From assembly GCA_028753945.1 (NCBI GenBank), contig JAPNXP010000007.1, forward strand, positions 3,782,001-3,846,000: DNA of 64,000 nt, given 5' to 3'. The notes below the pieces were generated by a model, which saw nothing but the letters and a program-made list of their open reading frames with translations, did no database searches and had not been told where the DNA came from. Shown in pieces: positions 10,494-44,411 of this stretch. This stretch comes from Hexactinellida sp. DTS-2022. Taxonomy: Eukaryota > Porifera > Hexactinellida. A program made the translations under genes and the position numbers. Each line of letters starts with the position of its first letter. The stretch's first letter is position 1.

Positions 10494-11092
10494 CTGGAGT
10501 CAATTATAACAATCTTAAAAATGAGTTTCTTCCTTTTTGCTTCCAACACTATATTAATCACGAGATTACATGGTAAAAACACAAGTATAACATCACCATT
10601 CGTAATTTTATTCACCACCATTTCTGAAATTATTTTTGCAGCCAACAAGATGCGGGCTTGAATGAACTTTTTAGTTTGTTCTACAAACCAGTTTTTACCT
10701 TGAGATTCATCCAGTTGATCCGGAATGTGCTTGAGCAAAAATTTCATATAAGTGATACTATTCCGCATTGAAAGGGAAAGAGGGCTGCATTCCTTCAAAA
10801 AGTTAATACAAGGCTCAATAATTTTAATACATTCTCTAGCCATATCCCTATTGTCAGGTGTTCTATAATCCTGTATTAGATTCTGAAATGCAGCTAAAAG
10901 AGCTACAGTTCGTGCACTTGAGCCAGTAATTTCATCCGTTGAAAGTTGAGCACCAAGTTTTAATATAGCTGGGTGAATACCTCTCGATGAAAACATCAAT
11001 CTTGGATCAACTGTAACTAAATGAGATCTATCTGACTGATCCAAATGAGAAAATAGTTCAATAGTTTTCTCAGCAGCCTTACGTTTTGGTAC
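10494..11092 (-). CDS. EIF2B4: eIF2B delta subunit, one internal exon
   Basis: This exon encodes 199 codons plus two bases of the C-terminal alpha/beta/delta fold shared by regulatory eIF2B subunits. The delta subunit belongs to the guanine-nucleotide exchange factor that recycles eIF2 in the cytoplasm. Recognisable stretches are GIHPAILKLG, SARTVALLAAFQNLIQDY, ECSPLSLSMRN and ITNGDVILV, ending KIVIIDSR. The acceptor is TTAG before 11092 and the donor is CAG/GTAAAT at 10494/10493. The frame enters in phase 0 and leaves after two bases of the Arg codon. No in-frame stop occurs and the conserved words are intact, so the exon looks functional. I did not find the flanking exons, which implies long introns. 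It is the only host gene I can name here. Confidence 0.9.
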
Positions 11093-13445: not shown

Positions 13446-15718
13446 ATGGAATATTCAATCATTGAAGGCAAACGGTTAAATTCTTTGAACGACCTATCAG
13501 ATGGATATACAGTAGAACCTCGTTATACGAACACATTTAATACGAATTTTCGGATAAGACGAACAAACAGATCCTCAAAATCAAGTCCCTACAATGGCTA
13601 TTGAATGGGTATTACTCCGATTAATACGAACTCCGGAAAAGAAAACAAAATTTTACCATCCGTTGGTGTTCGTGTTAACGAGGTTCCACTGTGGGTATAC
13701 CCAAAATCGCGAATCAAATGGTAATATCTACCTCCGATGCACTCTTGCAAAGCAATGTAATTGTCTAGGATTGGCGAAAATTCCCGATATAAGGTCTCTA
13801 TTAGAGGTTACAAAAGCGCATAACCATTCTCGTTCTGAATACATGTCAGATAGTATTGTCCTCAGGGGTTTATCTGGATGCCTGGCCGGCACTTCAAAGT
13901 GCCGGTTAGGCATCAGTTGTGATCAAAAACTGCGTGATTTGCGAAACGATTTAGGTCCCGGGTTGACATTTAATTAGCTGCTGGGTGTATGGCCAGATTT
14001 CCTGGTCCAGAAATGGTTGGATAGACAACCGTTGTGCACCGTAGCAGTATTACGTCCTAAATAATGCCGCATCATTGAATTATACTGATTATGTATTATG
14101 GCTAATGCTTCTAGGGTGCCGGAAATTTCTACCTCCATAATAAAGTGCCAGCAATGAAAATCCTAGATAAACCCCTGATTGTCCTAGCAAATAAAATAAA
14201 ACGACAGCAGAATCATCTACAGATGGTTTAAGAGAAATCTTCAACAACGCATGTCGCAATGCAGATGGAGCATCTTCTCTAACATTTAAGAAACTTGAAA
14301 GTTCGATGTGTTAAAGACGAAGGGTAGAACTTCCTAAGCTGCCGATATCTCCAGAGGAGTTTATCGAGCTCCCGATAGACGATCACAGACTAACTATTAG
14401 AGATGGAAATGAAACAGCAATATTGTTCGCCACTAATCTTTTGATATAAAAACTCGTGGAACTAGATACTATCCATTTTGACGGGACTTTTAAGGTAATA
14501 CCTCATATTTTTTTACCAGCTTTTTCCAATTTTCATACAATATAAAGGACATGCTGTACCAGCATTAGATATATTAATGACAAGCAAAAACGAACATTTG
14601 TATACAACCGTATTATCATCTCTTCGTCAATATATTCCAGATTTTAATCCATTAATGGCAATATGTGACTTTGAAAAAGCACCGCAAACTCTTTTATAAA
14701 TATTTTTCCACATATAACTCTTGTAGGTTGTGGGTTCCATTATACCAAGGCTCTTCATGATAAAATTCGAAAATTAGGGCTCGGTCAACTTTACCTAACT
14801 AACAAAGTTTTTTAAAAATGGGTTCATCAAATGATGGCGTTGCAATTTTTAACTGAAGAAGAGATTAGTCCTACTTTCATAGTAATTCATTTAGAGTTAG
14901 TGGGAGTAGCTGATTTAGAATTGGAGCTAGTGAGTTTATTCATAATTATTTATTAAAACATGGATTGATGGGAGTCAAAGCTTGTCCATTTTTTTTACAA
15001 TGAGGTCACTGCCAATAATGGCGCATAATCCTATCATAAATTATTACTCTAAAGACTTACATTAAAACAAACCATCCAAACACATGGGAATTCATGTCAG
15101 CAATGGATAAAGTAATGTCTGATTATGATTTAGAAGTAAAGAGACTGGAATCACTGGATGATGGGTTAGAAATTACAAGATTACCCAAACTTAAGTCTCG
15201 TACAAATGTTGAACTCAGAACAGAATATAAAACAAAGTATCTAAACAAAACATATTCACCCCTTGAATATATCAACGCAATTTCATTTACGATAGGCTGT
15301 CAAAATCAAAGTATGCAAAATACATCAAGTGAGCAAACAGGGCTATCAGATGAGGAAGATCCAGTTTAATCCAGAGATGACGAATTTAGAGAGATCAAGT
15401 GTCATTAGTGCCTTGGGACATACGCAAAGTACGGTGGTGCAGGTGGTGCTAAGTCCACCTGTACTTTGTATTGAGGTGCACCACTGGCACTTTTGGTACT
15501 TTGTATTGAGGTGCACCACTGGCACTTTTGGCTACAGGTCAAAGGTTTGCGCCTATGCCTTGGGAAGCAGGGCGAAAATTTTGCCTTACTGCATGAAAGT
15601 TATGCACATGCTGGATTTTTCGAAAGTTGTGCAAATAGATTACACCAGTGACCAGTTGAAACATGACTGTCCAATCTGTCGTGAGAAGATTGTTGGGATT
15701 ATGAGGGTCTTTCAGTAG
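13446..15718 (+). pseudogene. FLYWCH-MULE transposase and RING relic of MULE 1
   Basis: An ATG at 13446 begins MEYSIIEGKRLNSL. After an inserted MITE (13510-13691) the FLYWCH-type finger resumes (NIYLRCTLAKQCNC ... KAHNHS). The MULE core follows with a first Asp (DTIHFDGTFKVIP, about 14475), a second Asp (MAICDFEKA, about 14665) and a CGFHYT word near 14730. Multiple frameshifts and stops break this part. The C-terminal segment 15094-15369 is open and leads to a RING-like end (HDCPICREKIVGIMRVF) at about 15660-15715. The first half of the RING is degenerate. It is dead as a transposase, but MULE 2 has the same domain order, so the RING belongs to the element and not to a neighbour. Confidence 0.75.
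13510..13691. mobile_element. Pogo/Tc1-type MITE inside MULE 1
   Basis: Inverted ends CAGTAGAACCTCGTTATACG and CGTTAACGAGGTTCCACTG bound 182 bp; TA precedes the left end. It interrupts the FLYWCH finger of the MULE 1 transposase, so it arrived after MULE 1. Confidence 0.75.
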
Positions 15719-18405: not shown

Positions 18406-18894
18406 CCGTATGAATTGACATACAGTATATTGATAGCTTTCCATAAGTGAATTATTGTATAATGCGTCTTGTATACAGTTTGTAGGGTTTTTATATACCT
18501 TTGTAGCTCTGAAAATATTTTTTCCCAGTACAGCGTCGTTATTAGACAATATACGGACCAATTTCTATTAGAGTTTGTACAGATATAATTATATTTTTGT
18601 AGTTAGCAAAAAATTCACTAGTATAGTCAAATTTGAAGAGCTAGTATGGATTACAATAGCTATTATTTAAGCAAAATCAACTAATATTATTTTAAACTAT
18701 TATTCGTTAACAATTATGAGGAAAATTAGTCAACTAAGATGAATGTTGTAAATGGGAAAAATTGAAAAACTGTCCGAAATTTCCACCAACTTTTTCTTTA
18801 GCTCGAAAATATATTTGGGCACCTTTGGGCGGACGTAGAAATATTTTAAATCGAAGCTTAGATAAATCTATACTATTAAACACAAGGCTGGGTG

Positions 18895-18897
<3 letters not shown>

Positions 18898-18928
<31 letters not shown>

Positions 18929-19256
18929 TGTATGTATGTATGTATGTATGTATGTATGTATGTATGTATGTATGTATGTATGTATGTATGTATGTATGTA
19001 TGTATGTATGTATGTATGTATGTATGTATGTATGTATGTATGTATGTATGTATGTATGTATGTATGTATGTATGTATGTATGTATGTATGTATGTATGTA
19101 TGTATGTATGTATGTATGTATGTATGTATGTATGTATGTATGTACGTATGTATGTATGTACGTATGTATGTATGTATGTATGTATGTATGTATGTATGTA
19201 TGTATGTATGTATGTATGTATGTATGTATGTATGTATGTATGTATGTATGTATGTG
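18898..19256. repeat. (TATG)n microsatellite, about 90 units
   Basis: A nearly perfect run of TATG units extends for about 360 bp, with TACG variants near 19142-19162 and TGTG close to the right end. All long open frames across it are artefacts of the 4-bp period. It abuts the left end of MULE 3. Confidence 0.98.
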
Positions 19257-19261
19257 TATAT

Positions 19262-21085
19262 GAATTGGTGCCATTTCGCCTACTTCCACTTCGCCTACTA
19301 ATTGTATCATAGTGCCATTTCGCCTCCTCAATGGAATGCATTGTTTAACACACATTTCTAAGTTTTCAATAACTATTTAGCTTCACAAAACATAAATAGA
19401 TTAATTAACATAAATAAATAATACTGGAACATTATAACAATTAATGAATGTTAAACATGTGCTGAGATAGCACGAATATATTCCTTCAGTGTAATAGTGT
19501 CCTGACGTAATCTGTTTTTCAAGATCTCTATTTTGTTGTCCTTATCTACGTATTTCTTTGCCCTTTTGGGAGTCTCGCTGCCTATTGCAAGTTGAGCGAT
19601 GGAAACTTCAGTATTCGCCTGCTCCTGTTTGAATATTTCAATTAATTCATAAACTTTGGGGTGGGATTTTTTTGCGATATGTTTAAGCTTCTTATGCCAA
19701 CCTTCAATGTGATTGTTGGTTCTGGACTGTTGGAGTTTATTTCATATACATTCCATAAACCGAGAGAAAAATTACCCACCAGCCATGTTTCCTCAAAGTA
19801 GGTTATGAATTCATCAACTCTGTGTAGATTTGGGGTTGTTTCTTTTACCTCTTGCCAGGCTAAGCGTACATTTCGAACAGGTACAAAGGCAAGTGCTACT
19901 GTCTGACGTATGAAACAACAGAAAGAAGCATCCTCCCGATATGCAATCTGAAGTCCAAGTTTCGATATTTTTCGATTCACTGCTTGAGTGAAATGAAAAA
20001 AACACCCATTTACCTGCGAAGATGGAAACGTAAGCTCAATTGCCTGTATAATTGCTAGCTCAAAGTCTGTTAGGATTTCAGCAGGGCTCATTATGTATCC
20101 AAGGTTTCGGGATTTTTGCTTGACAAGCTCAAACGCTCGCAAATATATACCACGGGATTTTCCAGGAAGTAGACAGTAAGCAAATGGGAATTGTTTCCCA
20201 TACTTCATAGAGTGTAGAGTAAATATCTGATAAAACAGTTTAGGACACGTCTGAAATGTTCCATCAACGTAAATTTTCTCGGATTCTGAAAGATGTTTAA
20301 GGTTGTCAGCTGTTGAAAATATAATGATTTTATCATTCCCCTCTCCAACTTCTGTCATCAAGAACAGCTCCCCAGCATGTGTTTTTGACCATTCTCCCTC
20401 AAAGTGAACTTCATCCCTAGACTTTGGAAGTGGTGGAAGTCTATTTCTTCTTATTCTATAGAGGGAGGACTTCATGGAGTAGAGTGTAGGTAATTTTGCA
20501 GCTACTTGGTCCATATTTTCACTAGCTGAGACTTCAACTAATTGTTGCTGATACACTGACGGTATTGGATCGATCGTTTCCTTTATTTTCGTCTTCATCA
20601 TTTCTACTGCTTTGCAAGCTGTCATCTCAGCTCTATCAGGTGGATGGGTATGCTCACCTGCTCTGCTTGATACGATCTCGCTTTTGATCGTTGTTAAACT
20701 TCCACTACAACTGCGACTCTTTGCACATCTCCAAAAGATACTATCATTCCGACCTCGCCTATTGATAACATACCTATAGCCCTCAAATATTAGCGAACGA
20801 GCGCCTCTGGTTGTTGTTACAAATTCCATATTGAGTCAAAGTTTAATAAGGGAAATACTCAACTGTTTAGTATTTATAAGATTAGTTTGATTAGAATCAC
20901 CTCTGTGTTTTTTGCACTTGAGAACATAAACATGTTGTTAAACAATGCATTTCATTGAGCAGGCAAAACCACACAAATATTAATAACATAAAAATGTGTT
21001 AAACAATGCATTCCATTGTGTAGGCGAAATGGCACTATTATACAATTAGTAAGCAAATTGGGAGTAGGCGAAATGGCACTAACCC
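19262..21085 (-). mobile_element. MULE 3 (FLYWCH-MULE), 1.8 kb
   Basis: Inverted ends of about 93 bp (19262-19354 and 20993-21085) read GAATTGGTGCCATTTCGCCT and GGGTTAGTGCCATTTCGCCT inward. The flanks GTGTATAT and GTGTATAA match at 7 of 8. Each end repeats the GGCGAAATGGCAC word, a mild version of the array ends of MULE 1 and 2. The single gene runs on the minus strand and fills most of the element. No RING finger is seen. Confidence 0.85.
19451..20829 (-). CDS. FLYWCH-MULE transposase, one frameshift
   Basis: The product is a cut-and-paste transposase acting on its own element's ends. The N-terminus carries a FLYWCH zinc finger (F15, Y18, W33, C35, C41, H60, H62). The MULE catalytic core shows D189 (YVDGTFQ) and D255 (LTDFELAI), followed by a C276-x2-H279 word. 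Near 19745, at about residue 360, the frame shifts; the next frame continues with NNHIEGWHKKLKHIAKKSHP, which holds the expected catalytic Glu, and runs to the stop at 19451-19453. A single frameshift therefore separates an otherwise complete protein of about 458 residues. The start at 20829 is the first ATG in frame. It may have been active recently, or the shift could be a sequencing error. Confidence 0.85.
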
Positions 21086-24134: not shown

Positions 24135-25016
24135 ATGTCGAATCGCAAAGACCGATGTAGATTGTCCTCCCAAAAGCAAGCGCAATCTACACCAGAACAC
24201 CCTCTCCAGGTCAGAATTCCCTTATGTCAGGAAGGGGAAGGATCAGTAAATACACTCTCTAAATTTCTCCACTCCTTAGATGAAATTGACGATGAGACAA
24301 TGATTTCGTTTTCACACTCAGAACTCCGACTTATTATACTTAGTGCTCGCGACAGAGAGAGATCCACTCGGCAAGACCAGTCACAACGAGATATACTTGA
24401 TACTAAATTTAAGTCTCTAAGCGATAATGTTAATGAAATAACGGAGAAAGTCTTGACTAACACCAATCGTATAAATGATTACACTAAAGTCATCAAATCC
24501 TATGCAGAAGCTGCTTCTGTTTCCACCATTGACTCCACTCAGGTTCATCATGCTATACAAGAAGAAGAGGATATACGCGTAAAAGCACTCTCAAACAAAG
24601 ATAAGGAAAATCGAGAAAAAAATGTTATTGTCTTTGGAATGCCTAATAATCTCTCAGTTGAGGAATGTTGTGAGGAATTTATGAAAGTTACTCAAACTTT
24701 AGATATAAAACTACAGGTGAAAGAAGTCATCCGTCTTGGAAATGCAAATACTGATGTGGAGAAACCTAGGCCTATTCGTATTAAGTTAGATTCTAAGTAT
24801 GTAAAAGAGAAAGTTGTAGCAAGTGCACATAGATTGAAGGCGTCTCCTCAATTTACGAACATCTATATTAAACCCGACCTTACTTTTATAGAAAGAACTC
24901 TTCAAAAAGAACTACGACTTGAACTATCCAACAAAATACGAGAACAACCTGACAAGCGATGGAAAATTCGGAATAACTTGGTTATAGATAATGGTATGTT
25001 TAATCGAATCTCTTGA
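24135..25016 (+). CDS. LINE ORF1 protein (RNA-binding type)
   Basis: The 293-residue protein probably coats the LINE RNA and accompanies it to the nucleus, as ORF1 proteins do in other LINEs. The N-terminal third is polar and Ser/Gln-rich. Residues about 75-150 have coiled-coil character (repeated KSLSDNVNEITEKVL-type heptads). From about residue 165 the sequence NVIVFGMPNN ... VIRLGNA ... RPIRIKLDS ... matches the RRM-like plus C-terminal domain pattern of L1/L2-type ORF1 proteins. No zinc knuckle is visible. The ATG at 24135 lies 48 bp inside the element. It ends 33 bp before ORF2, so ORF2 may depend on reinitiation. Confidence 0.85.
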   Translation: MSNRKDRCRLSSQKQAQSTPEHPLQVRIPLCQEGEGSVNTLSKFLHSLDEIDDETMISFSHSELRLIILSARDRERSTRQDQSQRDILDTKFKSLSDNVNEITEKVLTNTNRINDYTKVIKSYAEAASVSTIDSTQVHHAIQEEEDIRVKALSNKDKENREKNVIVFGMPNNLSVEECCEEFMKVTQTLDIKLQVKEVIRLGNANTDVEKPRPIRIKLDSKYVKEKVVASAHRLKASPQFTNIYIKPDLTFIERTLQKELRLELSNKIREQPDKRWKIRNNLVIDNGMFNRIS

Positions 25017-25049
25017 CTTTCTTCTCATGAACAAGGGCATATTCCGAAC

Positions 25050-28000
25050 ATGTGTACTGAAATATATAAACGTACTTCTATCCAAGTTAACATAGATTTT
25101 TATCATCATAAACTGACTAAGAATTCATTTTATCCCTCTAATAATGCTACTAAAGAAACAAAGCTCCGTAATCTTATCTATATAAAAGTTCTCAAACCTA
25201 TCCCCGATGGTCTTCTCACAAATGTAGCTTTATGGAACTGTCATTCTCTGAATAATAAAAAGACATATTTATGTGATCTTATTATCTCACATCGCATTGA
25301 TATCTTATGCCTCACAGAAACCTGGGCTACAAGTGAGAATTCCCACACTATTGAAATTCTAAAAAACTTATTACCAGACTATCAAATTATTAACCTCCCT
25401 AGATACTCAAAAGGAGGAGGACTTGCTATTCTAGCTCGGAAGAATTTTCTTATGAAAAGAAACTATGGGTTTAAGTTTACAACCTTTGAGCATATTGATC
25501 TCACTATCTATTCAGGAAGTAATGTTGTTAGACTAATTTTGATTTATCGTCCACCTTGTTCAAAAAAGAATAAGTTCACTGTCTCCCATTTCTTTACTGA
25601 GTTTTCTACACTTATGGAAGACACTTTAATTTGCATCCATAGAATACTGTTATTGGGAGATTTTAACTTCCATATCGACAGTAATGAGGATCCTAATGCT
25701 AGTAAATTTGCTGATATACTAACTTCATGCTCACTTTACCAACATATTGATACTTGCACGCACATTTCAAAACATATCCTTGATCTAATAATTACACGGG
25801 TATGTGATGTAAATTTCATCTCTTCTTTTGAATTGCTTCACTCTACTATATCGGATCATGCATGTATTATTTGTAAATGCAAATTGCCTCTACCTGAGGC
25901 AAAAAAGATTCAAATCACTGGGAGGAAACTACATAATATCAAAATAGATGACTTGTGTAATGACATTAAAGAAGCTTGTGAGGAATTTAATAATGCTGAT
26001 GATGATACGGATGTGGAAAGACTTTCTTCTCATTTGGATGATATGCTAAAAACTTTGCTTGATATACATGCTCCTCTTATTTCGAAAGAAATAAGAAATC
26101 GTCCCAATTGTCCCTGGTACAAAGATGAGTTTAGAAAGGCTAAAAGAATGAAACGTAGAGCTGAGAGAAGATATCGCAAATCACACCTTACTATTCACCT
26201 TGACATCCTAAAACAACAATCAAGATATTATAATGAATTACTAAAGTCTGCAAAGTCAGATTACTATATGACCAGGATTGGTAATTGTGATGCGAAGAGT
26301 CTTTTTAAAACAGTAAACTCGTTTTTCTCTATTAGCAAGAATACTAAGAATTCTTTATTACCTATACATGAATCAGAATTGGATCTTGCAAATAGGTTCG
26401 CTGAACATCTGCACAAAAAGGTTATTGACATACGAGATTGCTTACGACTAAATCGTTTAGATCGTAAGTCTCTGTTATGTAGGTCCTCTGAGACATGCCT
26501 AACCACTATCAAGAACTTTGACTATGTATCCCCACACGAAATAATGAAGATTATATCTACCAGGTCAAATTCTACTTGTCACCTAGATCCACTACCTGTC
26601 TCCATTTTAAAAAAATGTTTAAATCCGCTTCTGCTGCCGCTTTCTCTGATTATTAACAAATCCCTAAGTAGTGGTGTCTTCCCCTCAATTTGGAAAAAAT
26701 CACTTGTTTTCCCTACTTTGAAAAAAGCTTCCCTTGATCCTGAAAATTTATTCAATTATCGTCCTATATCAAATTTGTCTTTTCTTTCTAAAGTTATTGA
26801 GTGTGTGATTGTAACTCAACTTGAATCTTATTTACATCAGAATAACCTATTTCCCACAAGACAGTCTGCATATCGTCGGTACCACTCCGCTGAAACAATG
26901 ATGCTTAAAATTACTAATGACTTAGCCTTATCTCTTGATAGGAATATGGATGTAGCTTTCGTCTTGATGGACCTGAGCAGTGCTTTCGATACAGTTGATC
27001 ACAATATATTATTAAAAAGATTAGAAGAAAAGTTTGGTTTTACTGGAATTGTTCAAAAATGGGTGAAGAGCTATTTAGCTGAACGTACACAGACCGTAGT
27101 TATTTCTAAAGTAGAATCTCTAGCTAGTCCTATGCCATGTGGTGTTCCACAAGGATCTGTTCTTGGGCCTCTCCTCTTTCTATTATATATCTCTCCAATT
27201 CAAGAAATTGCACAATACTACAATATGGAAATAATGATTTATGCTGATGACACTCAATTGTATACCTCCCTTTCAGATAATTCATCTACTCTACAATTAG
27301 AAAATTTTCAACGCTGCCTCAATGATATTATACAGTGGTTTCAATCTAATATGATGAAGTGCAACCCAGAGAAGACGAAATTAATACATTTTTCCTCAAA
27401 ATTCAAGAATGTCTCCTCATCCTTTAAAATATTCGCGGATGGACACGAAGTTAAGCTGGTAGAGGATGCAGTAGATCTGGGGGTTATATTGGATTCTAGT
27501 TTAAACATGAAAAAACAAGTATCAAAATTATGCTCTTCTGCTTCTATTACTCTCCGAAAAATCAGTAGTATTAGTAAATTTTTGGACAGAAAAGTATTAG
27601 AACGATTAGTTCATGCATTTATTTCCACCAAATTAGACTACTGTAACTCTATCTTATATGGATTGCCGGGTGTTGAAATACAAAGAGTTCAGCGTATACA
27701 AAATGCAGCTGCAAGACTAATCACTAAATGCAAAATACAAGATCACATCTCACCTATCCTGGACCAATTACACTGGCTCACGATAAAAAAGAGGATTGTT
27801 TATAAACTATTATTGTTAACCTTTAAATCTCTGTTCCACCAGACCCCAAGATACCTTTATGAAACTCTTGTTCTTCAACATCATCATGAACCAACTATGT
27901 CTCTAAGATCTGAAAATACTAGGCGATTACAGGTAAAAATACCCAACAATAAATTTTATGGCGGAAGAGCGTACTCAGTTATTGCTCCAAGGCTATGGAA

Positions 28001-28106
28001 TGCAATCCCTCCGAGCATCAGAAATAGTAACTCAATTGAGATATTTAAGAAACGTTTGAAGACTCTCTTATTTAAATCTGATGAACATGTATTTTGGACT
28101 TGTTGA
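25050..28106 (+). CDS. LINE ORF2: endonuclease-reverse transcriptase
   Basis: The 1018-residue protein nicks target DNA and copies the LINE RNA at the nick. An apurinic-type endonuclease occupies about residues 58-280, with WNCHSL, the LTETW Glu (E90), LLGDFNFH (D204) and the SDH motif at 268-270. The reverse transcriptase spans about 520-790, with NYRPISNLSFLSKV, MDLSSAFDTVDHN, CGVPQGSVLGPLLF and the YADD active site at about 731. The C-terminus ends with the conserved GGRAYSVIAPRLWNAIPPSI block. No stop or shift occurs, and all key residues I can check are present. It should be competent if expressed. The motifs fit the CR1/L2 group rather than L1 or RTE. Confidence 0.95.
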   Translation: MCTEIYKRTSIQVNIDFYHHKLTKNSFYPSNNATKETKLRNLIYIKVLKPIPDGLLTNVALWNCHSLNNKKTYLCDLIISHRIDILCLTETWATSENSHTIEILKNLLPDYQIINLPRYSKGGGLAILARKNFLMKRNYGFKFTTFEHIDLTIYSGSNVVRLILIYRPPCSKKNKFTVSHFFTEFSTLMEDTLICIHRILLLGDFNFHIDSNEDPNASKFADILTSCSLYQHIDTCTHISKHILDLIITRVCDVNFISSFELLHSTISDHACIICKCKLPLPEAKKIQITGRKLHNIKIDDLCNDIKEACEEFNNADDDTDVERLSSHLDDMLKTLLDIHAPLISKEIRNRPNCPWYKDEFRKAKRMKRRAERRYRKSHLTIHLDILKQQSRYYNELLKSAKSDYYMTRIGNCDAKSLFKTVNSFFSISKNTKNSLLPIHESELDLANRFAEHLHKKVIDIRDCLRLNRLDRKSLLCRSSETCLTTIKNFDYVSPHEIMKIISTRSNSTCHLDPLPVSILKKCLNPLLLPLSLIINKSLSSGVFPSIWKKSLVFPTLKKASLDPENLFNYRPISNLSFLSKVIECVIVTQLESYLHQNNLFPTRQSAYRRYHSAETMMLKITNDLALSLDRNMDVAFVLMDLSSAFDTVDHNILLKRLEEKFGFTGIVQKWVKSYLAERTQTVVISKVESLASPMPCGVPQGSVLGPLLFLLYISPIQEIAQYYNMEIMIYADDTQLYTSLSDNSSTLQLENFQRCLNDIIQWFQSNMMKCNPEKTKLIHFSSKFKNVSSSFKIFADGHEVKLVEDAVDLGVILDSSLNMKKQVSKLCSSASITLRKISSISKFLDRKVLERLVHAFISTKLDYCNSILYGLPGVEIQRVQRIQNAAARLITKCKIQDHISPILDQLHWLTIKKRIVYKLLLLTFKSLFHQTPRYLYETLVLQHHHEPTMSLRSENTRRLQVKIPNNKFYGGRAYSVIAPRLWNAIPPSIRNSNSIEIFKKRLKTLLFKSDEHVFWTC

Positions 28107-31242: not shown

Positions 31243-31626
31243 ATAATACTGCAAGCCCAATAATTTTGAATTTATAGAAGATAATTAGATTTCGTTTTCA
31301 GTTTCGATATAGCTATAATGTCTTCCATCATATATGTGAAATTCAAACTCCCACCTTCAAAACTAAATTCATGTGTTTTTTTGGGTGAATCTGCCGTAAT
31401 TTAACCTTAATGAAGAATATTGCATTCCAAATACTTGTATATTTCAAGTTGTTTGATTATGTAAGGATTGCAATCGTGTTTACAGAAAGTAATCACTAAT
31501 CCTGATATAATTAGGAAGTGCAGTCATGATATTCTTCAGAGGTACCAAAAACTTTAGTTCCTGTGAACACTGTGACGCAAATCAAATAAATTATTATCAA
31601 TTAGTATTATTAGAGGGAAAGCTTAA

Positions 31627-31755
31627 TAAGGCCGAATGGAATAAGGTCGAATTGTCAATCCGGAATAAGGCCGAATAATATTAAAGAGCGGAATAAGGCC
31701 GAATTGTATTCAAGACTGGAATAAAGACGAATTGTTAATCCGGAATAAGGCCTTT
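31627..31755 (+). repeat. Left tandem array of MULE 2
   Basis: Six units of about 20-28 bp contain GGAATAAGGCCGAA (variants AAGGTCGAA, AAAGACGAA), separated by TTGTCAATCC or TTGTATTCAAGACT-type spacers. It is mirrored at 34535-34683. Confidence 0.9.
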
Positions 31756-32952
31756 GTTATGTTTTGTTACCATTCGTACATATTTGATGTGATTTAACAC
31801 AAATAATTGTATTCTCAGCTACAATGATTCCAAGATGTTATTCTCTGATCCGGCTTCTTATCAAATTTTTTAATTCGATACAACTAGTTATTAATGGTAT
31901 ATATTATAGAATAAATCATATCCCAATAATGGCTAATTACGAAATTATTGAAGGTTGTCGCAGACTCGTTCATTTATGTCAATGGAGGCTATACCTACAG
32001 AATGGATAAAGCTGTTAAAGGTATCCGATATTTAAGATGCACTGAATTCAAGGTGGGTTGTCCTGGACGAGCGAAATATCTTCGGACATGATTTCAATCA
32101 CAAATGAACACAAAAATCATGAAGAATCCGAAACAAATGTCGAAATTAGAAAGTTATTAAACGAAAAGCTGAAAATTCGTAAGGATCGCTTCGTGAAATT
32201 TTCGATGAAGAGGCCAATGAGTCTGAAGTAGGTGGAAATATTAGCTTTGCACGATTGGAGAATATTATGTATAAAAGAAGAAGATTAAACAGACCACAGA
32301 TTCCCTTGAATGCAGAAGACACGATTTCTTTAATGCAAACTTGCAATGACGAATTCAAAATAAATCATTCTTTTTCAATTAATGGACCATTGCCAGGTGA
32401 GATGGCGATTGGTTTATGAGTCTTAAATGGATATGTGCACTACAGTCAGGCGGAGATGCAACACTATTGCAGGCTGATGCTACATTTTTTGTAGTCCCTA
32501 AGCAATTCAAACAACTGTTGAACATTTTCCTGGAGTACAAGTCCCGTTATTTACCAGCAATTCACATTCTGATGACAAAAAAGAAAGCCACCCAATATGA
32601 TCGAGTTGTAGAGAAAATTAAAGAGATGGTACCATTTACTGCAACTAGGATAATGACAGACTATGAAAGACCGCTATTCAATTCTTTATCTACAGGTTTT
32701 CGCAATGCAGCAGTTAGAGGTTGTAAATATCATCACGACCAAACACTTTACAAAACTGGAATACTAAAAAATGGATTGGCGACTCTCTATACTTCACATC
32801 AGGAATTCAGTAAGTGGGCTGAAAGGTTTATGTGTTTGCCTCTTCTTCCATGTGATAAAATCATGGAGATGTTTAACTACCTCAAACACAAGATATCTGA
32901 TTTACCAACATCAGAGAATGAAAAAGTAAAGAAACTACTCAGATACTATGAA

Positions 32953-33111
32953 CAAGGGCGTAGCCAGCCTAAGCCAGACCAAAATCTAGGGGGGGCAAAT
33001 GTACAACTTGCGAGCGCAGCGAGCGACTTAAAGGAGGTCTGGGTCTGAAAATGGCTGAGTAGGGGGGGGGGGGCAACTGCCTCCCCCTTACCCCCCCTCC
33101 CTACGCCCATG
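32953..33111. mobile_element. hAT-type MITE, 159 bp, inside the MULE 2 gene
   Basis: Perfect ACTATGAA duplications (32945-32952 and 33112-33119) flank ends CAAGGGCGTAGCC and CTACGCCCATG. Opposing G-runs and C-runs fill the interior. Conceptual removal with one duplication copy joins the MULE 2 frame (LRYYE to RFWLEQ) without a shift, which supports the boundaries. Confidence 0.92.
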
Positions 33112-33440
33112 ACTATGAACGATTCTGGTTGGAACAAATAGGCCCCTCAAGACTCTCTGTATTCCAGAATGACAAAAGCACAAATAATGACCCTGAGAGT
33201 TTTCACGCTAGATTGAAAAGAAAATTTTGCTCACATAATCCTAATAATTGGAGCTTTATAACAAAATGAATCAAGTGATTAAAACTACAGAGAAAGATAT
33301 AGAGAGAATTGATAACAACATCCCTATTCGCCGTAATGTCACACCTGATAGCACTCCATAAAAATCGAATTATCCAAGACCTCCAAAGAAAATTAATACA
33401 CGATGAGATCAATTTAATCGAATACTTTATTAAAGGAAAT

Positions 33441-33540
33441 TAACGCGCCATGTAATTAACGCGAAGGAAATTAACGCTCCATGAAATTAAAGCGAATTGG
33501 AGCTGAACATTTTCAAATACATGAAATTAACGCGAATCGA
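33441..33540 (+). repeat. Short array of GAAATTAACGCG words
   Basis: Five variants of CATGAAATTAACGCGAA occur at 10-40 bp spacing, just before the half foldback. They may be subterminal repeats of another, undelimited element. Confidence 0.55.
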
Positions 33541-33549
33541 GCAGTACGT

Positions 33550-34110
33550 TATATAAGGCCTTACTACTGAGTAAATTGCTGTACCATGGATTACTTAAAG
33601 GCCATTAATTATTAGCTACATATCTTTATCTCAATAGCTAGTATTGACAGACCTGATAAATGCATTATAGTTGTATAGGGAGTTAGGGACATGATACCAA
33701 GGCATACATAACACCCTTTAGAATTGTGATATATCACCATTTGATTACGTAATCGCTATTTTTCGAGGGAATTATCGTGTTTTTATAGCCTGCTTTTAAC
33801 AAAGTTAAACGCGTTATAAATGCTCAAAATTGGAACACGAGGATGTCCATAACTAGTTGAATGAAATATATCGAAATTATAAATGGAATGTTGACACATT
33901 CCTCGGTTGCCAGGGAAATGCACATTTCTTAAAATGAGCCATAACTCAAAAACTACCTATTTTATGTAAACTATGTTAGTACTGATCTATCCGCAATTGG
34001 TAACTTCCTATTCATTGATAATACATTTTCTAGGCCTAACTTCAATAATCTTTGAGATAATGAGTGTATTACCATATAAATAATTAAGTGTTAATAATTG
34101 AGATAGCTTT
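33550..34110. repeat. Half foldback repeat, right arm lost
   Basis: It matches the left arm of the 52033-53108 palindrome from TATATAAGGCCTTACTACT through the central CTTTGAGATAATGAG and then stops. The right arm is absent. It lies between the MULE core and the RING finger of MULE 2. Confidence 0.8.
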
Positions 34111-34534
34111 CAACGTAGGAGAACAGTCTAATGAAAGATTATGTCGAATATGTTTTCTCAATCAAGCAGACACTCTGATTATGCCATGTTGGCATGCACA
34201 AACTTATAAAAGTTGTACTGAAATCATTACTATTTCAGAAGAGCTGAACAAGTGTCCCGTCTGTAGAGGACCAATTCAACAATTATTTCAAATATTCCTC
34301 TGAATTGATGATATTTGATTGCCCTAATTTACTTTTAAGTTTCTGTTCTATAATTTCATTTTCCATTTCTAACCATTATCATTTCCTTCCTTTAATACTT
34401 TTTAGTAAATACTCATTATTAAACTGAATAATTAGTAATGGGACAAATGAAATTATTGGAATTGGGAACCAATGGAACTATTTACAATTGAAGTGATATA
34501 TATATTACTACACATTCAATCTTTATTCCAGTCT

Positions 34535-34683
34535 TGAATACAATTCGGCCTTATTCCGGATTTACAATTCGGCCTTATTCCACTGTTGAATATTATTCGG
34601 CTGTATTCCGGATTGACAATTCGGCTATATTCCAGTCTCATATTCGGCCTTATTCCAGTTTAAAAATTCGGCCTTATTCAGTC
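34535..34683 (-). repeat. Right tandem array of MULE 2
   Basis: Six units of AATTCGGCCTTATTCC type form the reverse complement of the left array, with the same TTTACAATCC/TTGAAT spacers. It ends near TTATTCAGTCAACT. Confidence 0.9.
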
Positions 34684-35754
34684 AACTCTTTTTAGAGTTG
34701 ACAACATATTCTACATTATGGATATTGGATAGGTATGCAAATCATCATTGTAAGCCGATTTTAGTGAAATTTATGTTAATAATATCTTTTGCAAAAATGA
34801 TATTTTGTTTTGAAATTTACATGACAGGTTGTCATAGGTAAGATATATACGTGATTAAAAGGAAAATTTGATATAATGAATAATTTTTGAGTCATTATGG
34901 AAAAACCGAGGTCTAAATTTGAACTAAATTACTAAGTCATCATTTTGGCATTTTGGGATGATATATGGGTTGTCACAACTTTCATCTTTCCGCTGATGTG
35001 AAAATTTTTCACTTACAGCGTAAACTTTAAAAAAATGATATTTTCCAAAAAAATAAATTTCAAAATTAATGCGAAAAATATGGAAGCAAATATCTTAATT
35101 CTTAGTTTCTTTTGTATTTGCTATATTGTAGCGCGCTTCGTTGCTAGGTAGCTTCGAGGCAGAACACAATCACACACCTAAGTGTATGATGTGCAATAAA
35201 GTTCATTTTCACGTTTCTCAAAATGTGACAATGATGTCATAACTTGGCGAGGTTTGAGAGGAAACAAAAGGAAACAAAAGTGGATTATCAATGTGCTTAC
35301 TCATTAAAGAATGGCGACGCAATCACCAATATTTCACATTGTTAAATTTGACAATTTTATGCCTATTTCAGTAAACCTGTTAATATGATCCTCTTCCTCC
35401 GTTATTGGAAAATAACTGATTATTCAAAAGTGTCCCTTGTTAGAGAGAATACTTGTAGTCAAATTAAATATTACTAGATAGTAATTTTACAATAAAGTAG
35501 AATTTGTATGTATTATTAATATTATTAAATTATGAAAATCCAAACATAGTTCTCAAAAAGCAAACTATAATCACGGACTAACATGGCAGAGTAATGTTTC
35601 GAGACGCATATAAAACCTAGCATTACACCATACTTAAAATTCCGAATTTTTCGCCCGCAGGGAATCTATTATTTGAATTGACTACTATTTGCTATTTGAG
35701 GAATACTTTAAACCACGGCCTACTTTACCTTGGCCTGACAGCAAAACAACATGG
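34684..35754. other. Gene-free, contains a dispersed repeat
   Basis: No ORF is supported. Positions 35130-35400 carry the dispersed repeat seen near 2355, 16690 and 22885 (GCGCGCTTCGTTGCTAGGTA ... TTGACAATTTTATGCC). A short inverted repeat (CTCTTTTTAGAG) lies at 34685-34700. Confidence 0.45.
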
Positions 35755-37025: not shown

Positions 37026-39886
37026 TCATGAGAATTTTTTCAATTTACGTTTATCGATACCTATTTGAAGCACAGAGGAGTTGTAGTTTTTAATTTTATT
37101 GGCAAGAAAACAATTAGCAGCAGTAAAGATTAACTTGCTCAAAATACTCCAACTGTACACATCGCAATTAACACAATTTGATTTCCAGATAGCAATATCA
37201 TCATCATTTTCCATGTATATCAAGGTGAGTTCTACTAATAACCTTCTAGAGGGACCGTCTACAAGCAAAGTCAACAGCTGATTATTATTTTCTATTGCAA
37301 TCATTATCTTCCATAAAGTTATAACTGAAGTAAGCACAGGCTCGGACGGATACTTAAGTCCGCCACGATCTGTTAATTGTAAGAGCTTAAACTCAGTATG
37401 TGATTCAACATCAAAAACAAATTCTTTATCATAAGTTAGAGTATCAGTGCACACATGGCATTCCGGAGATCTTTTTAAGAACTTATGGACCGTATAGCCT
37501 GCGATAAAAGCTAACGACTGAAGGATTTGTTGAGAGCATTCAATGGATGATAGATCGCCAATTTCATCAAGAAAAGGCATTACAGCTATTCCATCATCAC
37601 TAGATGTATCAGAGGGGGTAGAAAAAGACTTTACAAATGTCTGAATCGTTTGGAAAGCGTCTTGTTGGTCTGCAAACATGTTTAATATACTATAAAGTTT
37701 CAGACGACGCTCGGTTTCAAGAATCTGAAGGTAAGAAATATGGTAATTCGAACCCGACATCATACGGTAGAGTCCAAAATGGTGTTCCAACGGGTCAGTT
37801 TGTAAAAAGGATGATAATACGTAGGAAAAGCCACAATTCTCAGTTAGATGGTTAGTTATAAGTGGTAAGGCAGTACAGGCGTGTCTGAAACTAGTATACG
37901 TTTGCTTACTCAATTTACCCGTTTTGTCAGGTAAATCCTGCCAAGCATCTAGCCAAAATACTATACGTGTCAAAAATAAAAATCGTTCATTGTTTAAGAT
38001 CAACGGTCTTGAGAGGCTATCATTTAAACGGGTCCCTTTGAACGGCGTATTGATATTGAATATTTTCCTAAGAGTAAGAAGGATACTTACGAAACTAGAT
38101 GTATCATTACGATACTCCGGACAACGACTTTCATTTTGGATTTCAAGAGCAGATAGTGTAGGTTCGCTAACAACCTTCAAAACCAATTTGACATTTTGCC
38201 TTTCTAACCTAGATGGAAAACAAGCTTTTACAGTCAAGTGAGGGGCTAGTTTTGCTAAACTGTATCGTTCAGAATTGTAGAGAAGGCGTACATCTTGAAA
38301 GGAAGCAGAATGGACACTGAGGGGTAGCTACATTTATCAATGTCAATATGTTCAAAATTTGGAAAACGAAATGTTTTATCAAAAAATTTCTGATTTAACC
38401 AATTATTGCGTATACTTTTCAATATATGGACAAAATCAAATGTAGGGAAGAGAGGTCTATTTTCATCAAAAGGGTGGGGTACTCTAGTTTCCAGCTTTCC
38501 ACTAAGAGAAAACAATTTAAACAAGTTTACATTCAATGGGTAGTTATCGGTAGAAATCATTTGGACCTTTAAACCACAATGCTCAATATCGATTATACAA
38601 GATTTGATAGTGGGAAAGATTTTTTTAGCTGAGATAGATGCACATGGTAACAAACGGGTAATGCAAGACCATTTCCTATGCAAACTAGACACCATAATCG
38701 CGAATACAGTTATCGTCGGATCCTCAGGGTTCAAATTTGGTGCAAATATTTTCCCGCCTTTATAAGCAATATCAGATTTAACATGGATTTCATCCATTTG
38801 AATGATTACATTTTTTTCCTCGGAACTAAAGCAAGATGTAGCCTGGGTGAGATAAGTGCAAAAATCATTTTCAAGACCGAAGGAAGAATACAACTTATCT
38901 AATGTATGGACATGTGGTAGAGTAATACATTCTAAACCCTGAAGATAGATATAACAAGCTGGAGAAATGAGATGAGTCTTAATGGACATAATTTGTGTTA
39001 TTATATTGTATCTTCGCCTGTTTTTCGGAATAAATGTATTATCTAATTGACAGAGGATAAATTGAAGCTTAGCTAAATCTGAAGAATTGTATGTAGGTCC
39101 GTCGATACGCGCTAAATCATCAATAACATTATTTATATGTTTTTTGGCAAGAGGAATATTGTATGAATGTGAGTTACAACTAGAATCAGAGACAGATTTT
39201 AAGGAGATTTCATGCAGTATAGATTCAATTTGTCGAATATCATTAATTGAATTTACCGAAAGGGGAATAATTTGTCCATGGAACCAGGCGGATACAGATA
39301 AAAAATTATTTACTTCCAGATATAAATCGACAGAAACAGTCCTATCAACCATATTGGGTTGAATGAACCTAGTATTATGAATATCAGGATGCCATACTAA
39401 CCAATTATCAGGTAATGCAATCAAGATTAACTTAGCTTTTAGATCCTGTAAATTTCTGATGACGTACTTATGTTTCTCCTCGCTCTCAGATAGTAAGCTA
39501 AGCTGTAGTGTCTGATTCATCAATTCTTCTTCTTTTGCGTCATACGACAAGCGAGTCCGTTTGGTTGTTGTGGTTGAAGAGTAGTAGGATGGACAACCAG
39601 GAAGTAAGCAGGGAACTGCGCCGTCTCTCAACTTGGGCTTTGCACGAGGTATTTCAGTGAAAGTTCCGTCTCCATTGGGAACCTTGTGAGAAACTTCGAC
39701 ATCTTCTTCTCGAAAGTGCTTCACGCATACGTTGACTACCTTCAGGTCATCAATATCCTCTCGGTGAAGAGCCCGTATCCAAGCTTGTCTGAGTTCTGGT
39801 GGATGTTCAGGCATCCTGAATATAGGAACTCGATCATCTGGGCTGTAGTTACTTCTGCATCCGGGGGCTGAGCAACTGCTGGGCAT
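37026..39886 (-). CDS. P-like transposase with THAP domain, one frameshift
   Basis: This is a transposase of the P/THAP9 type, which binds its own ends and cuts DNA with a DDE-like site. The chosen start is the ATG at 39886 (MPSSCSAPGC); an ATG 17 codons upstream precedes no conserved sequence. The THAP zinc finger spans residues 1-96 (C5, C10, C54, H57, AVPCLLP). The catalytic region has MDEIHVKSD, STDNYPLN and DFVHILKSIRNNWLN, and the late acidic motif DPLEHHFGLYR. Near 38300 the frame shifts once: the upstream frame stops at 38255, while the other continues ...QDVRLLYNSERYS... to 37026. About 950 residues in all. All the motifs I expect survive, so this copy is young; the shift may be real or a sequencing error. 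Confidence 0.85.
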
Positions 39887-40117
39887 AATGTAAACGAATC
39901 TAATAGTTAGAAGTGAATAGGAACAGTAAGTGGACAAGAAAATGACAAAATACTTAAAAAGAGAGACTAATAATCAATAGAAATTTAAACTTACTATTTA
40001 GTGGGGTAGTTGTAACAAAAAAATGTGGTTCATTATAAATAGAAAAATGGGTTAAAATATTGTGGTTGGTTAAATATTACCATCTATTAGTGCATCCCTA
40101 GTCCATAATTTCAAGGT

Positions 40118-40585: not shown

Positions 40586-42509
40586 ACTAACTCTATGAGT
40601 AACATTGTAAATCCATTGTATCATCTTTGTATACACTATTAATGAACAAGTACAAAATAATTACGTAGTAGTTTGAAAACTAATACGGAAGTGATATAAT
40701 TATATAATATATTGGCGTTCTACTTCTATATAGATTTGAATTTTTTGCCTTTCCGACTATCTAGCCTTTCTGAAGCGATTTGAGAATTAACATCTCGAAT
40801 CTTATTTACTAAAATGCAATTAGAGCAAATAGTGAGTATTTTCTTTAGTATATTCCAACCCAATGTGGTGCAGTTAGGACAGCTTCGTCTCCAGTGCTCA
40901 CTGTAATAATCCACTAAAACCCTCTCAGCTAGCTGAATTAATATTTGACGTGAAGGAGAGCAGTAAAATAATTTCTTTAAAACTTTACATTCTTCAATTT
41001 TCATAAATATTTTCCATAATACCACGTTGGAATCAACTACAAAATCTGAAGGTCATTTAAGTGAACCACGATCCACATACTTTACTAAGTCATATTTAGT
41101 AGCGTCACTTAGATCTAAATCTTTGTTTCTGTAAGAAATTCAGAACAGAGTTGACATTTAGTGGTTTTCAGATAAGAATAAACTGAGAAACCGCCGATAA
41201 AGACAATTGACTGAAGAATAGAAATGTCAAGTTCGAAGGTGTTTAGATCAAGTATGACACCAAGATACGGATCACAAGATATTTCAGTACTGTCTTCAGG
41301 TGTAAGTGTAAAAGTCTCAATAAAACCTTTCAATGAAAGTTCACTTTTGTTTTGGTGTGAGAATAATTTGAGAATATTGGATAAATTTAGGCGGCGTTGA
41401 CTTTATAATATTTGGGTATAAGAAATGTGATATTGTGCACCACTCATCATGCGATATAACCCGAATTGGTGTTCTATCGGGTCATTCTGAAGTCTCGAAG
41501 ATAAAACATAGGAAAATCCGAAATTCTTAACTAGGTAAGAAACAATTAAAGGAAGAGTTATACATCAGTGAAGAAAACTCACAAAGGTTTGAGGACTAAG
41601 TTTGCCATCCCTATAAATGGTTGAACTCCATCTGTCAAGCCATCTAGAGATCAAATCAAGAAATCCAAAACGCCAATCTTCATCCATAAGCGGACTAGAG
41701 AATTCATCTTTCAAGTGTACATGTTTGTAGGGTGCATTCACATTGAATATCTTCCATATTTTGTTGACAATATCTACGAAATATGGAGTGTCATTTTTAA
41801 ATCCGGAACGAGAATCATTTTGAATCTTAAGAGCTGCACATGTTGAGTCATTAAACACCCGAAGTGCTATATTTACATTCTGGCGTTCAAAAGTTGTAGG
41901 CCAGCAGGCCTTAGAATTTAACCTATGAGCTTGTTTAACGGTAGAGTGTTCTTCATACTTGTACAATAATCGTATGTCATTAAACTTGGCCTTATTCAAA
42001 ATATTAGTTTCACTGAACGAGGGATAGAGTAGGATGTCGGGATATATAAATGTACGATCATGATCTTTCAAGTTCAGCCAGTTATTTCGTATCGATTTTA
42101 GTATGTGTACAAAATCAAAAAGAATAAAGAGTGTTCGGTCTGAACTAATTCGATGTGGAACCTCAGGGGCTAGTCTTTTTATCTGAGGAAAAAATTTAAA
42201 TAAAAGGACATTCATTGGAAAATTATCTGCAATGAGTACTTCAATGAATAGACCACATCTTCGATATCTATTATAACAGATCTCACAAACGGATAAAGTC
42301 ATCTGCAGTAGAAAAATTGGAGGGACAAAGTCTCACAACTTGTGACCATTTATTGAATAACTAGATACTATTAGACCAAATACTTTTTTAGTTGGAGCTG
42401 TAGGATCTATGTCTCCAATAAGCTTTCCCCCTAAATGATGAAGGTGCTAACTATGTATATAGTAAACAGTGTCTTGAGTACTATTAAAATAAATCACCTG
42501 TGTATGAAA

Positions 42510-42809
42510 CAGGGGCGTCGGAAGCGTGAAATCGGGGAGGGGGCAATCAGAATTTAGGGGGGGCACAGACCAAAACTAATTCTTAGTAGTATAAAACCCC
42601 ACGTGATTTTATGTCTTTTTTGATAGTTTCACATCGAATAAGAGTAGTAGTATCATGACATTTGAACTCATGTATATCATTGGTGTTGTTATTTCATCCA
42701 TTAGGACAGGGGAAGGGGGCACAGGCGATGGGATGCACAGATGAGGGGGGCACCGAGATTTTTGAGGGGGGAACGTGTCCCCCTGTGCCCCCCCCTTCTG
42801 ACGCCCCTG
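42510..42809. mobile_element. hAT-type MITE, 300 bp, copy A of a pair
   Basis: Perfect GTATGAAA duplications (42502-42509 and 42810-42817) flank ends CAGGGGCGTCGGAAGCG and CTTCTGACGCCCCTG. It interrupts the first acidic motif region of the element 2 transposase. A near-identical 302-bp copy is at 46174-46475. Confidence 0.95.
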
Positions 42810-43470
42810 GTATGAAATATCTGATAGCTGATGTAACGTGTATTTCATCCATATTGAGTACAACATGACGCTCCCTCTCTGAAAAGTTGGCAGTTAAGTT
42901 TTTGAGTATAATTGAAAAGTCATTCTCCAATCCAATACAAGAAGATAAGAGACGAAGAGATCTTGTTGTCGGGAGAATGAGACTGTCTAATGATTGAAGA
43001 AACTTATAGCAGGCAGGTGAAATTAAATGTGCTTTCAAGGCAATAGTCTAAAAATTGAAAACAAAATGAAATTATTTTCAAATTTCATATTAATTAATAA
43101 AATCTAACCTGTGTAATCACGTTATACCTCCGTTGGTTCACGGCAACAAGCAAGTTTTCGAGTTGACAAATTAGGAAATATAGACTGGGCAAATAAGATG
43201 TATTACGAGGTTCTTCAAAAAATTCATCTGTGGATAGTGAACTTACTAAAATAGAAATTGCTGATCGTAAACTCTCTGATGATTATTTGATGTTTTTGAG
43301 AACAGGATCAATTTCTAATACATCAAAATTCGGCTGGAAATCTTGAATATAGTCAAGGTGTTCTATTTGTCGTAGGTCCGTGATTTTGTTAAAAGGCAAC
43401 TGTACTTGCTGTTCGCAACTAATCGCTAAAACGGTTAAATCTGAATTGATCGTTATTGTTGATTCAATCT

Positions 43471-43621
43471 CAGAGGCGTGCTGGGTCCAAGGGGCCCAGG
43501 CGGGATTAAGGCCTTACTACTACTCCGAATTTTTTCGGGGGACCTACGGGCCCACGGTAAGCAACTTTTCGGGTGATCCGGGCGGGATTCCCGCCTGCCA
43601 TGTATGGCCAGCACGCCCCTG
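43471..43621. mobile_element. hAT-type MITE, 151 bp
   Basis: Perfect TTCAATCT duplications (43463-43470 and 43622-43629) flank ends CAGAGGCGTGCTGG and CCAGCACGCCCCTG. The interior has opposing GGGCGGGATT and CGGGCCC blocks. Confidence 0.92.
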
Positions 43622-44411
43622 TTCAATCTTGACAGACAGTTTAGACAACTGAAGCTTGATGAGATGTAGTGTATTACATGAAGAATACCAAATTGCCCAA
43701 TTGTATTTCAAATTTGTCAGGGATAGTTTTTGTTTGAGGTCTTCAAAAGAATCCTAGGTAATTCTTCTCGTTGTTCCTCGATTAGACTTTCCTTGAGGCT
43801 CTTAACAAAATTTTCCTCATCCTTTGACTCTCTGCTAAAGCGTTTAGATGCCTCAGCAGTTGAGGTGAAATGAGATGGGCAATCTTGAAATATTACAGGT
43901 ACTACATTAGGACGATAAGTAGGTCTTTCACGTGGTATTTCGCTGTAAGTCCCATTAGCTTGTAAAATTATGTCTACTCTTATTAGGTCGTGTTCTCTAA
44001 AGTCGTGAATGCAGATAAAAATTTTATCCGTTAACAGATCTTCTGTTTTCTCTCTATGGAGGGCTCTAATCCAAGCGTGGACTACATCAGGTGGACCTTT
44101 AGGAAGTTTAAAAACTGTACCACTAGGATGTCCTCTGTAATTAGTCTTGCACCCGAAAAAGGAACATGTGTTAGGCATGTGACAAGCTAAATTAATCAGA
44201 ATTAATTAAAGTTAGTACGTAGTAGTTCAGGGTAACAATTATTGCCAGCAGAATCCCGGATAAAAAGTAAATCCAAAAAAACTACGAAAGCAAATACACA
44301 TACTAAAATATAGTTTCAATGTTTAAGGGTCGTTAATAATACCTTAAATATAAACAATTTAAATGCACTTCCAGGCAATGTTTAGTCTTGAATCCACCTA
44401 AAACCAACGTA

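Follow-up and report, generated by a model that had tools for sequence, protein, structure and literature searches.

The window (the whole stretch analysed here, 64,000 nucleotides of contig JAPNXP010000007.1 from Hexactinellida sp. DTS-2022) contains near its middle the remains of a Mutator-like element (MULE) whose transposase gene combined three domains (Table 1). A FLYWCH zinc finger, a MULE transposase core, and a C-terminal RING finger follow one another on the plus strand, an order that an earlier note on this DNA had proposed and that tblastn recovers in the sequence. The left terminal region is inverted relative to the right one and starts identically in two sister copies, and GGAATAAGGCCGAATT-type repeat arrays occur in inverted orientation at both ends (31615 and 34688). 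Perfect 8-bp TSDs, GGACAGAA and CTCTCATA, flank two sister copies whose ends are the same. The long TIRs and 8-11 bp TSD by which MULEs are recognized are found here as TIR arrays and two perfect TSDs, with 7 of 8 positions agreeing in the window.

The window element is a dead copy, as shown by frameshifts, stops, two nested insertions and the change of one RING cysteine to tyrosine. The two insertions separate coding parts of the element, and both are missing from sister copies. At the junction of the first insertion is a 9-bp overlap, corresponding to the flank repeat. The second belongs to a repeat family with some thirty or more genomic copies. Members of this family are about 550 bp long and in part, often, occur as inverted pairs, and the best listed copies are 91-95% identical. 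An Rfam scan of the window gave no match.

Table 1. Features of the window; position 1 is its first nucleotide.
Feature	Position	Strand	Basis or remark
Decayed FLYWCH-MULE-RING element, probably MULE 1 of the earlier note	13446..15715	+	tblastn; nearest L060, other deep clade
FLYWCH-MULE transposase without RING	19463..20829	-	Pfam FLYWCH and MULE over cut-off
Left TSD, TTATTAGA	31607..31614	.	7 of 8 positions agree with right TSD
Decayed Mutator-like element	31615-34688	+ (coding remains)	TIRs and 8-bp TSD, 7 of 8 matching
Left terminal region, TIR	31615..31752	+	Begins GGGAAAGC; GGAATAAGGCCGAATTRT-type repeat array next
FLYWCH zinc-finger remnants, shifting frames	31929..32165	+	tblastn with residues 1-80 of intact protein
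MULE transposase core, part one	32156..32953	+	Aligned pieces 80-89% identical to intact protein
Catalytic Asp codons	32476-32478, 32659-32661	+	Placed by alignment to intact protein
MITE-like nested insertion, about 158 bp	32954..33111	+	Ends GGGCGTAG...CTACGCCC, flanks ACTATGAAC
MULE core, part two, frameshifted	33112..33428	+	tblastn, residues 345-449; DNA 92-95% identical to sister copies
Catalytic Glu codon	33195-33197	+	Placed by alignment to intact protein
Second nested repeat, about 670 bp	33429..34097	+	Replaces about 107 bp of coding sequence for the linker
C-terminal RING finger remnant and stop codon	34100..34303	+	88% identity to intact RING
Right terminal region, TIR array	34520..34688	-	Final letters GTCAACTC
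Right TSD, TTTTTAGA	34689..34696	.	Pairs with left TSD TTATTAGA

All three catalytic codons (Asp, Asp, Glu) persist in the window copy. Its 210-aa core open reading frame alone scores 24.7 bits for the Pfam MULE domain, under the cut-off of 27.6. The RING segment, open over 34100-34300 and with ligands at 34142-34264, alone gives 42.9 bits for zf-C3HC4_3 (cut-off 27). Two features of this finger had been singled out as odd. The tyrosine before KSC, encoded by TAT at 34205-34207, is confirmed; it is attributed to decay, because the sister copy has a cysteine there (CRHAQTCKRC). In L056, which belongs to the other clade, this site likewise holds tyrosine. The long spacing before CPVC, 12 residues, is equally real, but it is no defect, since RINGs of the element's own clade have 11-12 residues here; most other MULE RINGs have 6-10, and human BIRC3 has 6.

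An intact sister copy is present on contig C1, where a single 552-aa frame lies within an element that has TIRs and a perfect 8-bp TSD. Across the initial 1,054 bases of the query, its DNA is 94% identical. In Pfam, the RING (47.4 bits) and the MULE domain PF10551 (33.9 bits, cut-off 27.6) both pass, and FLYWCH, at 22.2 bits, is slightly below its cut-off of 23.6. The RING reads C-x2-C, CRH, C-x2-C, CPVCR, and the protein ends ...QIFL. Among 32 relatives that were scanned, some of which are fragments without the FLYWCH end, the MULE domain matches in 31, the RING family in 29 and FLYWCH in 9 at E 0.001 or better. As judged from sequence, FLYWCH is the weakest of the domain calls; predicted models match the FLYWCH structure 2rpr with Foldseek E values of 0.019 and 0.009 and a probability of 1.00.

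The DDE triad of the intact copy comprises D188, D249 and E372. In a 13-row alignment, both aspartates are invariant, and the glutamate is lysine in two rows. The own-genome copies L072 and L071 have lysine in place of the catalytic glutamate, although L072 is otherwise an open 533-aa frame. An RNase H-like fold carrying the triad, as in other MULEs, is found, and the best match in PDB fold searches is ISCth4, of the IS256 type (E 8e-6 and 6e-5), with a low TM score of 0.27-0.34 by query. No RING appears among the best 50 matches of these searches. In a first model, the RING has pLDDT values of 40-65 by blocks. The AlphaFold2 model of the relative P0031 has a mean pLDDT of 86, with RING blocks at 81-92 and the last three residues at 71, and includes a strand at 527-531 in the RING tail. 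The linker ahead of the RING has low confidence in the models.

The family is numerous in its own genome. With 79 of 1,895 candidates scored, at least 85 scored matches to the intact protein were obtained. At least 49 extend from FLYWCH (beginning no later than residue 25) to RING (reaching residue 540 or beyond), and at least 35 of those are stop-free in frames 500 aa or longer. Another five stop-free long-frame matches end before residue 540. The proteins of L060 and L061 are identical and are encoded on different contigs, which suggests recent movement. The proteins of L065 and L066 are identical too; these loci, separated by 2 kb and oppositely oriented, may reflect a local duplication. 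Database searches returned at least 16, at least 24 and at least 40 matches, partly overlapping, with many full-length proteins that have both MULE core and RING. The glass sponge Oopsacas minuta contributes two matches, with a RING by Pfam and part of the MULE core by alignment, and two rotifer matches have the MULE core with no RING found. Distant relatives with a RING are present on short contigs (P0015, P0056 and P0057, the last without the FLYWCH part). Searches of viral contigs, phage records (with P0001) and plasmid records (with P0031) found no relatives.

The association of RING and core also is evident when the genome is searched with the RING only. Of 150 scored RING matches, at least 69 have one of the 150 listed MULE cores on their 5' side, on the same strand and no more than 3.5 kb away, compared with 2 of 150 on the wrong side or strand, and chance adjacency is thereby rejected. 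The earlier note had raised the prospect of a RING closer to a host gene than to the RING of MULE 1. No such case occurs among the 12 best own-genome matches, all of which are downstream of a MULE core; six of these represent the same family, query and window copy included. A core is found upstream within 3.5 kb on the same strand for 22 of the best 30 matches. The other eight, the best of which has rank 14, could be solo remnants or host genes. When the zf-C3HC4_3 domain was used for the search, at least 41 of 150 matches coincided with a MULE match; a wrong-side control, which covers the PF10551 part, gave 0 for the 20 of these 41 found via PF10551, and the other 21 fall outside it.

By its sequence features, the RING is of the IAP/MDM2/MEX3C type. 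Among proteins of solved structure, the RING of the window family is nearest in sequence to MGRN1, BIRC3 and BIRC2, and one RING from the other clade to MEX3C, BIRC3 and MDM2. The shared features comprise the ligand pattern, Cys-Pro-x-Cys and a short tail that ends the protein. A Pfam scan of the intact transposase detected neither BIR repeats, which define IAP proteins, nor another host domain (hits of P0001, E 0.1). In fold searches of a viral library, RING and IAP proteins are weak matches, with E values of 0.0009 and higher. The best viral fold match to P0031 is the bracovirus protein O92526 (544 aa; 506 columns, TM 0.62, 21% identity).

We compared 37 RINGs, not counting P0012 (a near copy of P0009), P0001 (the same as L039) and P0002 (96% identical). 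Apart from P0001 and P0002, 63 database proteins were screened with the RING pattern; 27 pass and 36 fail, and many of the failures are fragments or end inside the RING. The Cys-Pro pair is present in all 37 RINGs, an isoleucine, valine or leucine between the first two cysteines in 36, and an arginine after CPxC in 35, P0015 having glutamine and P0056 aspartate at this site. An aromatic residue is found within the last five positions in 35 of the 37, and the standard C-x-H...C-x2-C in 29. The sequence features of IAP/MDM2-kind RINGs (ligands, I/V/L, CPxCR and aromatic tail) are thus all represented, with one ligand missing in the window copy. Eight RINGs depart from the standard pattern: an MDM2-like pair is present in five, whereas one cysteine is gone, with no H-x4-H replacement, from L056, P0030 and P0036. 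H-x4-H precedes C-x2-C in six rows (P0027, P0028, P0029, P0048, P0053 and L060), of which five lack the usual cysteine of C-x-H and L060 has both. For the RING of P0053, 16 of 17 PDB matches are MDM2 or MDM4.

These six rows are the kin of the first FLYWCH-MULE-RING element of the window, which is probably the one that the earlier note had called MULE 1 and had contrasted with the present element, its MULE 2. As the note supposed, the two are strongly diverged, belonging to different deep clades as judged by their nearest intact relatives. The RING of MULE 2 is indeed the clearer one; that of MULE 1 looked unclear because the copy is decayed and because its kin have the MDM2-like ligand set. 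Between the two lies the RING-less element at 19463-20829, for which three-frame translation revealed no RING after the core. This element adjoins a long TACA-type microsatellite at about 18890-19260.

In IAP and MDM2 RINGs, the C-terminal tail and its aromatic residue form a dimer, and E2 binding, ubiquitin positioning and dimer formation are marked by the arginine together with the hydrophobic residue and the tail. Because transposases work as multimers, the preservation of the aromatic residue and tail in 35 of 37 RINGs could mean that the finger is only a dimerisation or folding module, with no role in ubiquitin transfer. However, the arginine after CPxC and the I/V/L residue within the first cysteine pair mark E2-active RINGs and would be superfluous for a mere dimer. 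Since both are kept almost throughout, we regard a purely structural finger as unlikely, although it deserves weight, and favour a RING that would recruit an E2 enzyme.

In a tree based only on the core, 17 RING-bearing MULEs form one clade relative to five RING-less FLYWCH-type MULEs, with 100/100 support. The RING-less rows were hand-picked and include the window element at 19642-20829; rows of the trees exclude the near-identical loci L061, L063, L066 and L067, and also L071 and badly decayed loci. Distances between RINGs follow those between cores, with r 0.87 for 18 rows, 0.88 and 0.77 within the two main clades, and 0.74 for 37 rows, a value that none of 2,000 permutations reached. Starred RING branches are present in the core tree in 3 of 3 cases (18 rows) and in 7 of 8 (37 rows), the RING and core trees have 15 of 34 splits in common, and the core topology fits the RING data better than any of 300 tip permutations. 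The earlier note had looked to congruent trees as support for vertical inheritance of the fusion. The distances and starred branches bear out such congruence, but identical topologies are rejected: the AU test gives p 0.0056 for the core topology with the RING data, whereas the SH test does not reject it. The AU values are 0.0002, 0.0004 and 0.013 after dropping P0015, then P0012, and then L060, L072 and L056. Because the RING has only about 55 columns, the conflict is read as noise and long branches; occasional RING exchange, a second acquisition or model error are possible causes of the AU result.

The AU result also would fit a RING that was gained more than once or swapped among lineages, so that one fusion is common only to parts of the family. 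RING branches with support of at least 80/80 that involve P0056, P0057, P0015 and P0005 contradict starred core branches and point in the same direction. When four human RINGs are included, human and MULE RINGs are intermingled in the best tree, on branches of weak support; a single clade of MULE RINGs is not shown, nor is it rejected (p 0.09 and 0.18). On the other hand, the RING-bearing cores constitute one clade, all but one of the starred RING branches agree, and of the four rows in conflict, three are distant ones. We therefore consider repeated gain or swapping improbable. The intact open reading frame with all three regions, the fully supported core clade and the joint divergence of RING and core uphold the earlier note's proposal of a fusion inherited from the ancestor of a lineage, as opposed to a chance insertion.

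The RING is retained in the same frame and place, with most of its ligands, in copies that are about 30-34% identical over the protein. For seven pairs of diverged copies, which overlap and are not independent, the differences at the three codon positions are 0.325/0.230/0.560 in the RING and 0.321/0.235/0.573 in the core. In the absence of constraint, the three positions would be about equal, so the RING appears to be held about as tightly as the core. Because a transposon protein is selected for the spread of its own element, the likeliest contribution of the RING is to transposition or to persistence. MULEs do tend to pick up fragments of host genes, according to PMC6446971, and the RING might be such a fragment without function; its constant frame and place in diverged copies, a constraint equal to that of the core, and the single clade of carriers make this very improbable. 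That the locus is a domesticated host gene, as a long coding history with three domains might suggest, can practically be dismissed given the TIRs, TSDs, many copies and a window copy broken by frameshifts, stops and two insertions.

The RING is fused to the transposase, this fusion has spread through the genome, and it is under constraint. The phylogeny and the codon-position differences make a single ancestral fusion, kept by selection, the best reading of its origin. With a probability of about 0.6, we propose that this ancestral, once-fused and selectively maintained RING is a working E3 ligase that acts with the transposase by recruiting an E2. That intact relatives in the same genome keep the RING suggests that it is likely part of how the transposon works. 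In the proposed mechanism, the N-terminal FLYWCH finger would bind the element ends, as its domain type implies, and the DDE/RNase H core, with its conserved residues and fold, would cut and join DNA. Conserved residues suggest that the C-terminal tail of the RING pairs two transposase protomers and that the RING recruits E2. At the insertion complex, the transposase might then attach ubiquitin to itself or to a host protein, which would limit the transposase level or remove a repressor. RAG1 reportedly undergoes autoubiquitylation, to go by the title of a cited work. To our knowledge, the benefit of a ubiquitin-ligase finger to a transposase is not settled even for RAG1. At least 35 stop-free RING copies, alongside RING-less FLYWCH-MULEs, make this question directly testable.

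RING fingers have been described in RAG1, where the domain has ubiquitin ligase activity, and in two subgroups of Chapaev, and a 2015 statement held that they are encoded in no other known transposable elements (PMC4411706). These proteins resemble the present one in that a DDE transposase lineage is fused to a RING. According to the same paper, however, they have a core of the Transib/Chapaev kind and a RING after the Chapa domain, whereas here a MULE core is combined with FLYWCH and a C-terminal RING. Pfam finds a MULE core with a C-terminal RING in the intact copy of our element, which is set apart from Chapaev and RAG1 on the basis of the published description.

Two MULEs with a RING are mentioned in PMC6446971. 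The Ghost element of the aphid M. cerasi differs from ours in that its RING is in a separate 420-bp ORF, its transposase is truncated, no TIR or TSD was found, and it is represented by one element. MuDR 37_Pi of Phytophthora (Table 1 of that paper) has a C3HC4 ring finger, but is from an oomycete, is one member of an otherwise SWIM subgroup, and has no FLYWCH listed. Phantom-type MULEs (group 20 in that source) are similar to our element in having mostly animal hosts, FLYWCH in some cases, and TSDs of 8-10 bp where indicated; they differ, in a comparison by description only, in having no RING listed. No group in Table 1 of PMC6446971 is listed with both FLYWCH and RING. A literature search by title and start of abstract, a scope outside which most subscription papers fall, retrieved no description of a FLYWCH-MULE-RING lineage. 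Isolated RING-MULE reports thus already exist, and it is the stable FLYWCH-MULE-RING lineage that seems, provisionally, to be new.

The RING fusion described here, in another transposase superfamily and with at least 35 stop-free full-length matches in one genome, looks old and preserved, and the MDM2-like ligand branch shows the finger evolving inside the element. It is possible, and we suggest it tentatively, that MULEs made their own transposase-ubiquitin ligase independently of RAG1 and Chapaev. The RING of such a protein, dimeric and fused a single time, would act together with the core during transposition. Full-length copies would number at least dozens in a single animal genome, and in one branch the zinc chemistry would have switched to an MDM2-like C2H2C4 form.

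Several other features of the window were observed. A non-LTR retrotransposon at 24135-28106 (plus strand) has an open 1018-aa frame for endonuclease and reverse transcriptase, preceded by a 293-aa frame without a Pfam match. Genes for THAP-bearing, P-element-like transposases are found at 37026-39937 and 41565-44178, both on the minus strand, the second in separate pieces. A frame of the Initiation factor 2B subunit family (PF01008, 69 bits) at 10490-11044 on the minus strand is probably an exon of a host gene.
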